Positions 3,763 to 8,662 of a DNA stretch of 48,844 nt are shown piece after piece (the stretch's first letter is position 1; each line of letters begins with the position of its first letter). The translations under genes were made by a program, and so were the position numbers. The stretch spans positions 1-48,844 of the forward strand of contig JAQSDJ010000073.1 of assembly GCA_029945855.1 (NCBI GenBank), given 5' to 3'. The notes under the pieces were generated by a model. The model had not been told where the DNA came from. It was given only the letters and a program-made list of their open reading frames with translations, and ran no database searches. The DNA is from Lacunisphaera sp. (GTDB taxonomy: Bacteria; Verrucomicrobiota; Verrucomicrobiia; Opitutales; Opitutaceae).

Positions 3763-4536
3763 TCAGACCAAGCCGGAACCCAGCAGGATGGCGATCAATA
3801 GCAACATGGCCGCGACCGTGCGTTGAATCGTCTGTCGGGTGATTTTCCGCAGCAGCCTGGTGCCAAGCCAGGAACCCGCAAAGGCCGCGAGCATCGTCAG
3901 GGCCAGCAGCTGCCAGGAGTTGATTATCTCCGACTGAAGCAGGTGCCGGCTGTAGCCGGCGAGTCGGGTGAAATCCACCAGGCAGGCGATGACCACGCCG
4001 GTGCCCACGAACGCCTCCTTCGTCAGGCCCAGTCTCGAGAGAAAGGCCGCCCGCAGTGCGCCTTGGTGTCCGCTCAGGCCGCCAAAGAACCCGCTGAGCA
4101 AGCCACCGGGCAACAGCCACGCCGACCGGAAGGTCAGGCTCGCCAGAGGCGGAATCGCCTCCCACAGGGCAAAGACGATCATGAGCAGCGCGATCACGAG
4201 CTTGAGCGCGGTGATGCCGTGCACCTTTCCGGCCAGTTCATAGCTCGCGAGCGGGGCGCATCCGGCCAGCAACTGGAGAACGTGTGCTCCCAGCCAAGCT
4301 CCGATGATGGCAGGCAGACCGAACTTCCCCACGATCCGCCAGTCCGCCTGGCGGCCGAGCAAGCCGGTTTTAAAAAGATTGCCCGCCAGATGCACGATGG
4401 CGGTCATCGCCACCGCCACCTCGAGCGGAAAGAAGAGGGCGAATGCCGGCAGGAGCAGCGTGCCCAGGCCAAATCCAGAAAAGAGGGTCAGCAATGACAC
4501 CCCGGCGGCGAACAATGGCAGGAGCACCCATTCCAT
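3763..4536 (-). CDS. TauE/SafE-family permease
   Basis: 257 residues from an ATG at 4536. The frame continues upstream to 4833, but that part overlaps the kinase gene and is low-complexity shadow. The protein is almost wholly hydrophobic, with about seven or eight membrane segments. It opens with MEWVLLPLFAAGVSLLTLFSGFGLGTLL-type sequence and has the internal glycine-rich LPGGLLSGFFGGLSGHQGA, the typical second-repeat signature of TauE/SafE (DUF81) proteins. The family exports or imports small sulfur-containing or organic anions; the substrate here is unknown. It is the last gene of a leftward run, 31 bp after the histidine kinase stop, so it is probably co-transcribed with the two-component genes and may act in the same response. 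Confidence 0.9.
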   Translation of the reverse strand: MEWVLLPLFAAGVSLLTLFSGFGLGTLLLPAFALFFPLEVAVAMTAIVHLAGNLFKTGLLGRQADWRIVGKFGLPAIIGAWLGAHVLQLLAGCAPLASYELAGKVHGITALKLVIALLMIVFALWEAIPPLASLTFRSAWLLPGGLLSGFFGGLSGHQGALRAAFLSRLGLTKEAFVGTGVVIACLVDFTRLAGYSRHLLQSEIINSWQLLALTMLAAFAGSWLGTRLLRKITRQTIQRTVAAMLLLIAILLGSGLV

Positions 4537-4567
4537 GGCTGATGTATTCGCGGGCCACCGGTGCAGC

Positions 4568-6025
4568 TCAATTCGGATTTCCCGGCGGAAAGTGAAGCAC
4601 GATGGTGGTGCCGTGCCCCGGTTCGCTGCTGGCCTCCGCCCGACCCTTGTGCAGGCGCATGATGGACCGGACGATGGCCAGGCCCAGGCCCGCACCCTGC
4701 GAGGTTTGATCGCGGGATTTATTTCCCTGGAAGAAACGGTCGAATATGCGCGGCAGTTGTTCCGCCGGGATGCCGGAGCCCGTGTCACGGACCTGGATCT
4801 CGGCTGAACCATCCGCGGTGTTGCGCGCGGCAATCACCACCCGGCCGGCCGGGGGGGTATGTTTGAGGGCATTGGCCAGGAGATTGCTGACCGCGCGGCG
4901 GAATAACATGGGATCCCCGGTCAGCTTGGCGGCACCTTCACAGACCACGGCGATTTCTTTCTCCCCGGCCAGGGCCTCGTAGAATTCGCGCACGGCTTCA
5001 ATTTCCCGGCGGGCAAGAATCACGCTGTGCTCGATGGTGGCGTTGGGATCGTCGGTGCGGGCGATAAAGAGCAGGCCGTCGATCATCCGGGCGAGTCGCT
5101 CGTATTCCTCCAGGCTGGAGCCGAGGATCTGCTGGTATTCCGCCGGCGATCGTTTCTGGGCCAGCGCCACTTCGGCCTCGCCCCGCAAATTATTGATCGG
5201 ATTGCGGAGGGCGTGCGCGATGTCGGCGGAGAATTCCCTTAATCGGTCGAAGGATTTCTGCAACCGGTCCCGCATCGCATCAAAGGCCACCGCGAGTTCG
5301 CGCAGTTCCGAAGGCCATTGGTCGGGATTCAGGCGCTCGGTGAGATTGTTGGCCGTGATCCGCTGGGTGGCCTGGGCGATGGCCCGCAGCGGCTGGAGAC
5401 CAGCGCGTGTTACCATCAACCCGACCGCCGCAGCAAACACCAGGCCGAAACCAAGCACCGCAAGGAGTCGCCAGCGGTATCGGGCCAGCACCGCGCTGTT
5501 GTGCCCGACATCCAACGCGATGTGCAGAATACGCTGGTCCTGCCCGGCCGTTCCCACCTCGACTTCGGCTGCCAGCAGCAGGTAGGTGCGGTCTTCGCCG
5601 ACCTTGCGCTCGATGATCGGCGGCTCTGCCATCGTCAGCCGGACCGGTTCGGGAAAGCTGAGCACCGGCAACAGGCTTGACATGTCTGTCGTCTCGATCA
5701 GCACCCGCCCGCGCGAATCCAGCACGCGCATGTAGTAGCGGAACAATTCATTGGCGGACGCTTCGTGTTCGATTTCGTTCTCCAGCACGCCCGCCTGGCC
5801 ATGATTCTCCTGCAGGAGCCCCTGCATCACCCGAAGTTTGCCGGCGACCAAGGCCCGGTCCGTCCTGGCCAGGCTGCGCTGCGCGCCGACATAGAGGTAG
5901 CCGGCCGCCACCAGGAGCAGCACGGCCGTTGCTCCAAAATAGAGCAGGAACAGCCGCCGGGCGATGGACCACAGATGGCGGATGGGTTCCGGCAGGGGCA
6001 GGCGGGGATCAAGTTCAGTTGCCAT
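4568..6025 (-). CDS. sensor histidine kinase, CusS-like
   Basis: 485 residues from an ATG at 6025; an in-frame ATG at 6034 would add three residues. Either start overlaps the regulator gene (by 11 or 20 bp), a usual sign of translational coupling. Order: TM1 at about 24-46, a periplasmic sensor region of about 135 residues, TM2 at about 185-205, HAMP at about 206-258, then the phosphoacceptor helix [16 protein letters not shown] with H271. The ATPase domain shows [11 protein letters not shown] (N box), VRDTGSGIP (G1) and GAGLGLAIV (G2). The phosphoacceptor and HAMP sequence resemble heavy-metal sensors such as CusS, but the ligand is not readable from the sequence. The H box reads HALRNP rather than HELRTP, a known variation. 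Its partner is the adjacent response regulator. Confidence 0.93.
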
Positions 6026-6737
6026 CAAGGACATAGCCGACGCCGCGGACGGTGCGGATGAGTTTAAGGGGAAAGGGATCGTCCACCTTGCTGCGCAGGC
6101 GCCGGACGGCGACATCCACGACGTTGGTGTCGCTGTCAAAATGCATTTCCCAGACGAGTTCGGCGATGAGGGTGCGGGAAAGCACCTCGCCCATGCGGCG
6201 GGCCAGCAGCGAGAGGAGCGCGAATTCCTTCGGGGTCAGATCGAGGCGTTGGCCGGCCCGGGCGGCCTTATGGTGCGGCAGGTCAAGTTCGAGGTCGCGC
6301 ACGCGCAGCACCTCCGGTTGGCGCGTGGGTCCCCGGCGAAGGATGGAGCGCACGCGGGCCAGCAATTCGGTGAAAGCAAAGGGTTTCACCAGATAATCAT
6401 CCGCCCCGAGATCAAGGCCCTTGACCCGGTCTGCGACCGTGTCGCTGGCGGTCAGAAAAAGCACCGGGGCCTGTCGACCCGCACGGCGGAGTGACTGCAG
6501 AATGGACCAGCCGTCACGGCCGGGCAATTGCACGTCCAGCACAATGAGGTCGTAGTATTCCGTCATGGCCTGGTGCAGGCCGTCCTCCCCGTGATGGGCG
6601 ACATCGACCACAAACCCGCTCTCCGAGAGTCCTTTTCTCAGATAGTCAGCGGTCTTCACCTCGTCTTCCACCACCAGGATGCGCATGCGCGTGGACATAG
6701 AGGATGGGCAAGGCACAGGCGAGTTTGATTCTGACAT
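6015..6737 (-). CDS. OmpR/PhoB-type response regulator, CusR-like
   Basis: 240 residues from 6737. The conserved N-terminus (MRILVVEDE) begins at an internal ATG at 6686, and an ATG at 6698 is also possible; I keep 6737 because a purine-rich GGGGA lies about 8-12 bases upstream. The receiver domain has the acidic pair EDE, phosphoacceptor D68 in [11 protein letters not shown]96 in LFLTAS and K118 in YLVKPF. A winged-helix domain follows, with the motif [15 protein letters not shown] and the terminal [10 protein letters not shown]. The [19 protein letters not shown] stretch is typical of the heavy-metal CusR/CopR group. It overlaps the kinase gene. The terminator at 6780-6813 lies just upstream, so it probably has its own promoter in the 107-bp gap. 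Confidence 0.94.
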
Positions 6738-6779
6738 GAGTTAGTCCCCGGGTTCACGAACGTCCGCTGCGACCGGACC

Positions 6780-6813
6780 AAAAAGGCCGGCGCGTCAGCC
6801 AAACGCGCCGGCC
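6780..6813 (-). terminator. intrinsic terminator after the cytochrome-porin gene
   Basis: A perfect 11-bp stem (6785-6795 with 6803-6813, arm GGCCGGCGCGT) has a 7-nt loop. On the minus strand it is followed by five T residues (complement of 6780-6784). It lies 31 bp beyond the stop of the cytochrome-porin gene and should end most of that transcript before the response regulator. Confidence 0.85.
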
Positions 6814-6844
6814 CTGCTGGAACTACCAAACCGAACCTAAATGA

Positions 6845-8125
6845 TTAGAAGCCCCAGGTGACCTGGGCAAAGAACCGGTCGTCGTTGAACTTGGTCGTGC
6901 CGGCGGTGGTGATGTTGCCCCCGAGGTAGGTCTGCTTCCGCGAATATTCAAACTGCAGGCGGGCGCCGCTCTTCTCGGACTGGTAGAGCATCATGTTGAA
7001 GCCCAGCAGCACCATCGAGACCTCGTTGTTGTCGATGTCCGTGTTCGGATCGAGCCGGTCATAGCGGGCGAAGACGCCGTAGGTGTCGCTGAAGTTGTAA
7101 TCGGCGAGGGCGTAGAAGCCCGCATTACTGGCCTTGCTGCCGGTGACGTTGATCGTCTCCTCGCCCGTGAAGTAGGTGCCGACGAGGCGCCACTTGTCCT
7201 GGATGTAGCGGCCCATCAAGCCCGCCTTGTAGAAATCATTCTTGTAGAGGAGCGGGGTGGTGAAGTCCTGTTTCACGGTGAAGTTGGAGAATTTGCCCTT
7301 GTAGTAGAAGGCGCCGATGGCGGACTCGTTCTCGTCGAAATTGTAGAGGCCCGAGAGGAAGATGTCCTTGTCCGAGTCGGCGTCGATGGAGTTGGTCGTC
7401 GAGGTGTCGGAGCCGTTCACGATGCCGGCCGCCAGCTCGAAATGCTTGTTCACGATCGTGGCGTCGAGGCCCTGCTGCCGGCTGAAGGGCCGGTAGGTGT
7501 TGCTGTTGCCGGCCAGCGCCTCGTTCAGCACGATCGCGCGCTGCTCCGCGCTGCGGGCGCCCACGCCGAAGACGTGGAGGATGCCAGGCAGGATCTCGCC
7601 GGCGCGCACCGCGAGGAACGACTCGCCGTCATCACCGAGCGGGTGGTTGTATTGGATGAAGGCCTCAGCCAGCTTCTTGCGGGCGGCGTCGCCCTGCACG
7701 AGGTTGGCGCCGGAGGTCGCGCCGGTGTTCTCGCTCAGATACAGCTCGGTGAAATACGAAAAACGGTCGGCCAAGGCGCCGCCAGTGTAGATCGAGAACG
7801 AATGCTGCTCGAACTCAAGTGTCGGCTTCTGCGTGTTGGCGAGCCCGGTGCGGGCGCCGTCCAGCTGGTCGGAAAAGACGCGGCCCTTCCAGACCAGGCT
7901 GAAATAGTGGTCCCACTTCATGTCCTCGGCCGAGACCTTGAGGGCCTCGGCCCGATGGCCGTTCTTGAGAAAATCAAGGCCGGTCTTGTTCAGCTGCATG
8001 GTGGGGGTGGCGTGACAACTGGCACAGGACGCGCCAGCCTGACGGGACCAGGCAGGGACGGCAAAGGTCGTGGCAGGCACGATCGCGGTGATCGCCAGCA
8101 AGGCGATGAGGTTTCTGGTTTTCAT
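6845..8125 (-). CDS. fused monoheme c-type cytochrome and outer-membrane porin (Cyc2-like architecture)
   Basis: 426 residues from an ATG at 8125. The longer frame to 8239 is rejected because it overlaps the upstream cytochrome gene and lacks a signal peptide. A signal peptide (MKTRNLIALLAITAIVPATT) is followed directly by AWSRQAGASCASCHATP, with the single heme-binding site C34-x2-C37-H38. The rest, from about residue 75, is polar with alternating aromatic and hydrophobic residues, as in beta-strands, and ends in the aromatic motif FFAQVTWGF expected of an outer-membrane barrel. One N-terminal heme fused to one porin is the layout of the iron oxidase Cyc2; the WxRQxGxxCxxCH context also resembles it, as far as I recall that family. 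This suggests electron transfer across the outer membrane. An uncharacterised porin with an N-terminal heme is the alternative. It lies 22 bp after the small cytochrome gene. Confidence 0.8.
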   Translation of the reverse strand: MKTRNLIALLAITAIVPATTFAVPAWSRQAGASCASCHATPTMQLNKTGLDFLKNGHRAEALKVSAEDMKWDHYFSLVWKGRVFSDQLDGARTGLANTQKPTLEFEQHSFSIYTGGALADRFSYFTELYLSENTGATSGANLVQGDAARKKLAEAFIQYNHPLGDDGESFLAVRAGEILPGILHVFGVGARSAEQRAIVLNEALAGNSNTYRPFSRQQGLDATIVNKHFELAAGIVNGSDTSTTNSIDADSDKDIFLSGLYNFDENESAIGAFYYKGKFSNFTVKQDFTTPLLYKNDFYKAGLMGRYIQDKWRLVGTYFTGEETINVTGSKASNAGFYALADYNFSDTYGVFARYDRLDPNTDIDNNEVSMVLLGFNMMLYQSEKSGARLQFEYSRKQTYLGGNITTAGTTKFNDDRFFAQVTWGF

Positions 8126-8147
8126 GGGTTTGTTCTTGGGAGGAAGA

Positions 8148-8423
8148 TTATTTGCCGTTGGCGGGGTAGTCCTTGAGCCAGGACAGGTCCATTTCCTTGG
8201 CTTGGCGCTTTTCCTTCTGTTCGAGGAGCCATTTGCCACGCTCGGTCAGAGGCTCGTCCTTCTTCTTGGGCTTCTCGTTCACATGGCAGGACGCGCAACT
8301 GGTGACGCCGGCGTCGTAAACCCGGGCTTTCTTGTTCCAGGCCAATTTGGCCTGCAAAGGCCCGGCCAGCAGCGCAGCCAGCAGCAGCACTGCGATCACT
8401 TTCAGGGTGGGATTGATCTTCAT
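8148..8423 (-). CDS. small secreted monoheme c-type cytochrome-like protein
   Basis: 91 residues from an ATG at 8423. An N-terminal hydrophobic segment (VIAVLLLAALLAGPLQA, about 9-25) indicates export to the periplasm. The heme motif TSCASCHVNE gives C43, C46 and H47. The C-terminal half is highly charged (KPKKKDEPLTERG, QKEKRQAKEM) with M78 as a possible sixth heme ligand. It is shorter than ordinary class I cytochromes c and matches none I can name. It is the first gene of the leftward pair and lies 22 bp before the cytochrome-porin gene, which carries the same CASCH motif. The two are probably electron-transfer partners; that is inferred from position and motifs only. Confidence 0.85.
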   Translation of the reverse strand: MKINPTLKVIAVLLLAALLAGPLQAKLAWNKKARVYDAGVTSCASCHVNEKPKKKDEPLTERGKWLLEQKEKRQAKEMDLSWLKDYPANGK

Positions 8424-8566
8424 GACATCGGTTTTTTAGGGGTTGCCACGGCACCGGTCGCAGCACCCGCGATCCACTTGTTTGGCGGGGTCACGGAGGG
8501 TCGGCTGGTTCCGCGTTTTCATGCTCGGAGTATGCCTGAACTCCGCGCACAGAATAATGACACCCG

Positions 8567-8584
8567 GATTACATTCCTGTAATC
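8567..8584. promoter_or_regulatory. operator-like inverted repeat in the divergent promoter region
   Basis: Perfect 7-bp inverted repeat GATTACA-TTCC-TGTAATC. It sits 144 bp upstream of the small cytochrome start (8423) and 79 bp upstream of the cyclophilin start (8663), in the 239-bp divergent gap. It is AT-richer than its surroundings. Spaced half-sites of this kind suit an OmpR-family regulator such as the one at 6015-6737; that link is inference. Confidence 0.5.
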
Positions 8585-8662
8585 TGGCGCGTGTCGCGGC
8601 GGCCGGGGTGGAGCACGCAAACGAGGCTGGCGCGGAGTTGCCGCCCCGCTATCGTCCCGCCC

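Follow-up and report, generated by a model that had tools for sequence, protein, structure and literature searches.

The stretch analysed here, called the window throughout, is the 48,844-nucleotide contig JAQSDJ010000073.1 (forward strand) of GenBank assembly GCA_029945855.1, a host assembly of 5.0 Mb in 330 contigs. Its minus strand carries a locus built around a fused monoheme cytochrome–porin of 426 amino acids (6845–8125), which comprises a signal-like start, a AVPAWSRQAGASCASCHATPTMQLNKTGLDFLKNGHR heme domain and a predicted 16-strand barrel. In the order of transcription, the locus consists of a region with a putative regulator box, the gene for a small monoheme protein of 91 amino acids with a signal-like start (8148–8423), the porin gene, an intrinsic terminator, the genes for a response regulator (6015–6737) and a sensor histidine kinase (4568–6025), and a gene for a permease of the TauE/SafE family (3763–4536). 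Both heme-protein open reading frames (ORFs) begin with ATG, encode one CASCH each and have N-termini that appear signal-like by eye, which confirms the two adjacent one-heme proteins with export-like starts reported in a preliminary description of this DNA. The terminator that the same description placed between the structural and regulatory genes is an inverted repeat at 6780–6813, 3′ of the porin gene, and is strong on the minus strand (−28.8 kcal/mol, z = −4.27), where it runs into UUUUU. A chance ORF is ruled out, as the porin family is kept in four phyla. The host is very likely a verrucomicrobium of the Opitutaceae type, because the nearest relative of the porin (86% identity) is encoded by a Lacunisphaera metagenome-assembled genome (MAG), and the verrucomicrobial origin suspected earlier thus stands. 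Judged by its sequence, the locus is a conserved variant of the fused cytochrome–porins that is accompanied by an unusually clear dedicated regulator.

Predicted fold of the porin and its relation to Cyc2

An AlphaFold2 model of the 426-residue protein, based on an alignment of 20 family sequences, predicts 16 strands across residues 75–425, with a mean predicted local distance difference test score (pLDDT) of 72 and a predicted template modelling score of 0.75. The protein ends in ...QVTWGF, and the beta-barrel-like region terminating in phenylalanine that had been described from the letters, together with the 16-strand barrel for which a structure prediction had been proposed as a check, is therefore present in the model. 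The best Foldseek matches of the model are the porins PorB, VhChiP, OprO and Omp32, and VIA-align gave Z scores of 22.8–24.9 to the solved 16-strand porins VhChiP, Omp32, PorB, OprP and OprO (among the best 50 rows, Z = 21.3–24.9 over 280–310 residues at 9–17% identity). Sequence profiles are far less informative. No Pfam or NCBIfam model came near its cut-off with the porin, the best NCBIfam model being TIGR01904 with 17.7 of 27 bits. Among the 20 members, weak Pfam matches comprise CCP_MauG in three (best E = 9e-4) and Porin_O_P (PF07396, the phosphate porin family) in one (E = 4.6e-4), and the latter is also weakly matched by one of seven Cyc2-like comparators (E = 0.0042). Searches of PDB sequences returned no convincing relative (8e5f_A reached E = 0.0044 when the protein was searched singly and 0.54 with the profile), and tblastn of the porin against plasmids gave no match. 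The profile search suggested earlier as a check for an unrelated porin family thus found none at cut-off, only the weak PF07396 match in one member, and the heme domain matches Cyc2-type proteins.

The resemblance of the barrel to chitoporin, Omp32 and OprO would suit a substrate-specific porin whose heme is structural or acts as a redox gate without net electron transfer, as would a host that the preliminary description read as a likely carbohydrate degrader. We nevertheless regard such a protein as very improbable: the heme-domain residues are invariant in 20 sequences from four phyla, several relatives have cytochrome neighbours and the heme domain is homologous to that of an electron-transfer family.

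Cyc2 proteins, represented by Mariprofundus Cyc2PV-1 and Acidithiobacillus Cyc2, share with the present protein one CXXCH in a short N-terminal heme domain that is followed by a 16-strand porin. The accessible passages of Keffer 2021 (PMC8406198) list among the defining features a single N-terminal CXXCH, a length of at least 365 amino acids, a 16-strand barrel and the motifs AXPXFAR[Q/K][T/Y] upstream and PXL downstream of CXXCH. The window's protein has one N-terminal CASCH in 426 amino acids, a 16-strand porin in the predicted model and a heme domain homologous to those of Cyc2-type proteins. The homology was examined with hhalign against seven comparators, which are proteins with the Cyc2 motifs or near-motifs and not the biochemically tested Cyc2s; they derive from plasmids of Acidithiobacillus ferrooxidans, Methylocystis, Caballeronia, Ideonella and Polymorphobacter and from two verrucomicrobial genomes. 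The 20-member profile aligned with the seven-comparator profile at 97.4% over residues 12–128, a range that spans the heme domain and the initial strands, with an E-value of 1e-11 that, like all hhalign values given here, refers to a single comparison and not to a database search. As a control, the family profile reached 16% over 12 columns around CXXCH with six c-type cytochromes encoded beside such genes. A second control was less favourable, these c-type cytochromes matching the seven Cyc2-like proteins at 61% (E = 8e-5) over 38 columns.

The motif AXPXFAR[Q/K][T/Y] occurs in none of the 20 members and strictly in three of the seven comparators, and PXL in 0/20 and 7/7, respectively. Conversely, PT(W/M/Y)QL is found in every member and in no comparator, and a G-H pair (PT(W/M/Y)QL...GHR) in all 20 members where six of the seven comparators have G-Y. 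Since the published motifs are missing throughout and the family has its own PT(W/M/Y)QL and G-H instead, it is, as far as these alignments go, a sister family of fused cytochrome–porins beside Cyc2 and not a Cyc2. Of the earlier designation 'Cyc2-like', the fusion of an N-terminal heme to a predicted 16-strand porin and the heme-domain homology are retained; the Cyc2 motifs are absent from all 20 members, which form a family of their own. It differs from Cyc2 further in three invariant histidines (H57, H108 and H184), in the copper-type regulator alongside it in Verrucomicrobiota and in its occurrence in Geothrix.

Electron transfer across the outer membrane, the job proposed for the present protein, is also that of MtrAB, MtoAB and PioAB, in which a decaheme protein resides within the barrel. 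No separate multiheme cytochrome with a 26-strand porin was found at the present locus, where each heme protein has one CXXCH and the predicted barrel 16 strands; here, one fused monoheme protein would do the work. As a further parallel to these complexes, a NapC-type partner adjoins the porin gene in one relative (L028). The 26-strand barrel of the MtrAB-type complexes is a separate protein, according to passages of PMC8406198. A Cyc2-like protein in Verrucomicrobia is not new in itself, because Cyc2 homologues have been reported from Verrucomicrobia MAGs of a humic lake (passages of PMC6344600). In openly accessible passages on fused cytochrome–porins, Cyc2, Geothrix and extracellular electron transfer (EET) in Opitutaceae, neither the present family nor its histidines, regulator and box were found to be described. 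The main text of a paper on the history of Cyc2 (PMC12442345) contains none of the phylum or genus names searched for, and the accessible parts of PMC10654088 and PMC11748539 add nothing on the family.

The invariant histidines also bear on heme ligation. Besides the CXXCH histidine, H57, H108 and H184 are the only ones invariant in all 20 members; each methionine position is kept in fewer than 17 of them, and the seven comparators have no invariant histidine other than that of CXXCH. H57 lies 19 residues past the CXXCH histidine, within a predicted helix. This pattern points to bis-histidine ligation and a potential lower than that of Cyc2, with H57 as the most likely distal ligand among the three, a less certain step of the mechanism proposed below.

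The small monoheme protein may be a detached relative of the porin heme domain. With hhalign it reached 86% (E = 5e-6) against the heme domain of the porins and 79% against the Cyc2-like set; kinship is only possible because the signal is not clearly apart from that to c-type cytochromes (57%, E = 1e-4, 19 columns). Its candidacy as an essential partner of the porin is weakened by its presence in only seven of 19 loci.

Further genes for Cyc2-like heme domains occur among the genomes inspected. Another verrucomicrobial genome (L018, 5446–7799) encodes a protein with the exact Cyc2 motifs (AIPAFARKY...CTMCH...PRL), its gene lying directly 3′ of one whose product resembles, by eye, a di-heme cytochrome c peroxidase. 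Two more such domains, also Cyc2-like, are encoded on opposite strands within 3.2 kb at L047, in another genome of the window's family.

Distribution in four phyla

Relatives were sought in one genome per species from 84,980 species with two short conserved peptides taken from four close relatives, a scan that may miss distant members. It yielded 18 related loci, which make 19 with the window: 11 in Verrucomicrobiota, three in Holophagaceae (Geothrix limicola, G. fermentans and one MAG), one in Gemmatimonadota and three in two genomes of Bdellovibrionales, L034 and L036 being in the same genome. For these 18 loci in four phyla, identity ranges from 46 to 86%. Full-length members are present in 12 of 250 genomes of the window's family, including its own; the other 11 strong matches correspond to loci of the scan and are not counted twice, and four weak matches (G003, G010, G509 and G605) are not counted as members. 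The genomes of 57 close relatives gave three strong matches including the window's own and one weak match, and a phylum sample of 387 genomes gave two strong matches, again with its own, and one weak.

Members from Verrucomicrobiota and Holophagaceae are 58–68% identical, which, together with the patchy presence of the gene, suggests its lateral transfer. In the tree, the Bdellovibrionota rows and the Acidobacteriota rows each fall on one side of a branch, and the single, long-branched Gemmatimonadota row stands among Verrucomicrobiota at an open fork. The relatives' genes were called by a simple script that mis-set at least one start (in L029, where the heme domain is cut); the alignment takes the second L035 copy from an internal start, and the rows of L029, L033 and the other Bdellovibrionales from codons that differ from the true starts. 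At L035 (8854–14924), the fused cytochrome–porin occurs in two tandem copies, after which come genes for a two-component system of PhoB/PnpS-like type and for a protein with two hemes.

A copper-type regulatory pair and its putative promoter box

The regulatory genes encode an OmpR-family response regulator of the CzcR/SilR/CopR subfamily, whose start codon is uncertain, and a kinase of the CzcS/SilS/CopS subfamily. The regulator exceeds the cut-off of NCBIfam TIGR01387 (340.5 versus 279.2 bits) and the kinase that of TIGR01386 (394.0 versus 292.55 bits), the latter being the sole protein above this cut-off among the 60 matches in its genome. Sixteen of the 19 loci have a two-component system adjoining the porin gene or its tandem copy; L028, L032 and L034 do not. 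The pair of L027 also lies above the heavy-metal subfamily cut-offs; the remaining verrucomicrobial pairs match the TIGR01387 and TIGR01386 models, a match recorded without score against cut-off. Two pairs from Geothrix narrowly miss the cut-offs (regulators, 250.4 and 257.8 of 279.2 bits; kinases, 260.9 and 267.7 of 292.55 bits). Residues invariant in the 11 of 11 sensors compared include E83, E85, H86, E87 and M114, which could serve as metal ligands; they presumably differ from the residues conserved in CusS.

Upstream of the operon, the putative box ATTACA-N4-TGTAAT of the CusR/HprR type is situated at 8568–8583, followed on the minus strand by a second element, GTCA-N6-TGT (8549–8561), and a −10-like element, GCATACT (8529–8535). 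All 11 verrucomicrobial loci that possess the pair have AT(G/T)AC-N5-(C/T)GT(A/C)AT upstream of the operon (with exact TGTAAT in eight) and GCAT at a constant offset from it (GCATA in ten); between the two, GTCA is present in 10/11 loci and TGT six bases on in 7/11. L028, the verrucomicrobial locus without the pair, has no box within two mismatches, nor have L022, the three Holophagaceae loci, L032 and L034; the L022 box was spotted by eye and has three mismatches to the plain core. A plus-strand scan of the 19 loci (315,801 bases) found 15 sites, ten of which are at the operon promoter. Sites with two mismatches away from it occur in L035 (three), L036 (one) and L020 (one, besides the promoter box). 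The distance from the box to the first gene is 61 bases in L020 (likely start at 8657) and 103 to 193 bases in the other loci, as measured to hand-chosen start codons.

The box is also rare in the genome. An exact match to ATKACANNNNTGTAATC is confined to a single site of the 5.0-Mb assembly, namely this promoter, and the reversed pattern, used as a control, gave no match in the genome. A slightly wider pattern, ATKACRNNNNTGTAATC, has a single place in five of eight relatives' genomes, which fits the contig and position of the porin gene, and none in the other three, whose boxes deviate. Over nine genomes including the window's own, the exact pattern is thus found once, at this promoter, in six and is absent from three. 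The boxes of E. coli CusR and HprR, CATTACAAAATTGTAATG, have the same ATTACA-N4-TGTAAT architecture (passages of PMC9302797), and both regulators are listed as single-target in E. coli (passages of PMC8249747). Because box, regulator class and uniqueness agree, a single-target regulator is predicted, and we strongly infer that this operon is the sole, or almost the sole, target that the CopR/CopS-type pair activates. The control by a CusRS-like pair that the preliminary description had proposed is borne out at the level of promoter sequence, with a putative box in 11/11 loci and a single exact occurrence of it in the genome, and both proteins lie above their subfamily cut-offs. The present pair thus shares with CusRS and HprRS of E. 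coli the subfamily models, the box architecture and the apparent restriction to a single target, but its apparent target is a heme porin, whereas theirs are cusCFBA or hiuH-msrPQ, and the pair stays below the equivalog models.

These similarities raise the possibility of a protein of metal or oxidant stress, in which copper, silver or oxidants are sensed by a pair of the CusRS/HprRS type, and the outer-membrane heme protein that it induces oxidises or reduces the toxic species. The subfamilies of regulator and kinase, the box and the single-target habit of CusR and HprR in E. coli (passages of PMC8249747) would all agree with it. Yet the equivalog copper/silver and HprR models are not reached (292.4 of 420 and 282.5 of 353 bits), no efflux pump, copper oxidase or Msr is encoded among 22 neighbours scanned with Pfam (three in the window and 19 at relatives' loci), and in Bdellovibrionales two of the systems belong to a different class. 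The invariant sensor residues, moreover, are what we take not to be an obvious Cu(I)-thioether set. A stress protein appears to us quite unlikely, a little more so than the iron oxidase considered below.

Candidate electron partners and a proposed outer-membrane conduit

Candidate partners are encoded beside the porin gene in relatives and elsewhere in the genome that holds the window. Lacunisphaera nzgw616 (L028) has two cytochrome genes 3′ of the porin gene, one for a cytochrome c of class I and one for a hexaheme protein of the NapC type. The window's own genome has an 81%-identical hexaheme gene on another contig, within a cluster of multiheme cytochromes (L083, contig C97, 1508–15996) that also encodes two cytochromes c of the L028 type (55–59%), a 7-heme protein, a 707-residue protein that has no Pfam match and looks barrel-like by eye, and two multiheme proteins matching cytochrome b561 with 13 and 11 CXXCH, the second barely above the cut-off; an NiFe hydrogenase is encoded further upstream. 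The cluster as a whole resembles a porin–cytochrome electron conduit. Within the family, the hexaheme gene occurs in 11 of 12 porin-bearing genomes versus 92 of 238 others (E up to 1e-30; Fisher p = 3e-4, a value that ignores kinship and assumes that the porin and hexaheme searches drew the identical 250 genomes). In the Gemmatimonadota MAG (L032, 2259–12344), the porin gene lies among genes for proteins with 4, 7, 9, 10 and 16 CXXCH; the same stretch encodes a 499-residue protein without a Pfam match. NrfA and NrfH are encoded within approximately 6.5 kb of the porin gene in two of the three Holophagaceae loci, as assigned by Pfam in L031 and by similarity to L031 in L030. Geothrix is a known Fe(III) reducer (passages of PMC6344600). 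Because of these multiheme, NapC and NrfAH contexts in relatives and the Geothrix hosts, we consider it more likely that electrons move outward or in both directions than that Fe(II) is oxidised, a view held with less certainty than the other parts of the proposal.

The competing view is an Fe(II) oxidase of the Cyc2 kind, with ferrous iron entering the pore and reducing the heme, and electrons passing inward to cytochromes and an oxidase. It can draw on the homologous heme domain, the same fusion and the predicted 16-strand barrel, as well as on the Cyc2 homologues reported in Verrucomicrobia MAGs (passages of PMC6344600). It is at odds with the lack of the Cyc2 motifs in all members (0/20, though the first motif is strict in just three of the seven comparators), with the NapC/NrfH-type and multiheme cytochromes around relatives' genes and with the hosts, which include the Fe(III)-reducing Geothrix (passages of PMC6344600). 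We consider an iron oxidase unlikely.

The reading we hold to be rather probable is that the locus encodes a one-polypeptide electron conduit of the outer membrane, which belongs to a family separate from Cyc2 and is controlled by the adjacent pair, the outward or two-way direction of the electrons being less certain. The conduit would consist of a 16-strand barrel and an N-terminal monoheme domain located either within the pore or at its periplasmic face. The heme domain, for which an electron-transfer role is inferred, would pass electrons between periplasmic c-type cytochromes and a substrate, soluble or small, that enters the pore. With less certainty, NapC-type multiheme cytochromes would feed it, and electrons would pass outward or both ways to a metal, humic or other extracellular acceptor. 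The CopR/CopS-type pair would activate the operon. A bolder version, which we advance tentatively and would not place at even chances, treats the family as a second, hitherto unrecognised clade of fused cytochrome–porins in four phyla, Fe(III)-reducing Geothrix among the hosts, whose heme is bis-histidine-ligated (with H57, H108 or H184 as distal ligand) and low-potential. It would conduct electrons outward through a single 16-strand barrel and form, in Verrucomicrobiota, the sole target of an adjacent pair that senses an extracellular metal or redox signal.

Several observations weigh against the conduit and its dedicated control. The heme domain, and with it the place of this domain in the pore, is modelled by AlphaFold2 with low confidence (mean pLDDT 41–59 for residues 21–60, with a helix at 47–58). 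The small monoheme protein is the sole electron-transfer neighbour within the window, and the hexaheme gene is in any case widespread in the family, its co-occurrence with the porin gene having been tested regardless of relatedness. On the regulatory side, the second promoter element is variable, as TGT is kept in only 7 of 11 loci, and three more places in the genome lie within one mismatch of ATKACANNNNTGTAATC (one within a cytochrome c match, one inside a long open frame and one in open frames at the end of a contig), none of them an evident promoter. Two Bdellovibrionales pairs are PhoB/PnpS-like and no such box was found in Holophagaceae, so the copper-type box is, on this sampling, a verrucomicrobial feature. 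The usual signals of this regulator class are copper, silver or oxidants, and a role in stress would fit them as well.

If the proposed conduit is correct, single-heme fused outer-membrane conduits are not solely devices of iron oxidation, and surveys that demand the Cyc2 motifs would miss this clade. In a Trout Bog study, Geothrix is assigned 0 oxidative EET genes (table passage of PMC12285243). The family may represent an overlooked route for electrons out of cells, also in iron-reducing Geothrix. With its apparently single target and single promoter box, the regulator offers a direct handle on the natural signal, and the inducer likely names the substrate.

The TauE/SafE-family permease gene was considered as a further part of the module and rejected, since it has no match in L012 or L015–L018 and its ORF clustered with no ORF of the stretches around the 18 related loci; its position is probably incidental. 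It begins approximately 30 bases past the kinase gene and is possibly cotranscribed with it.

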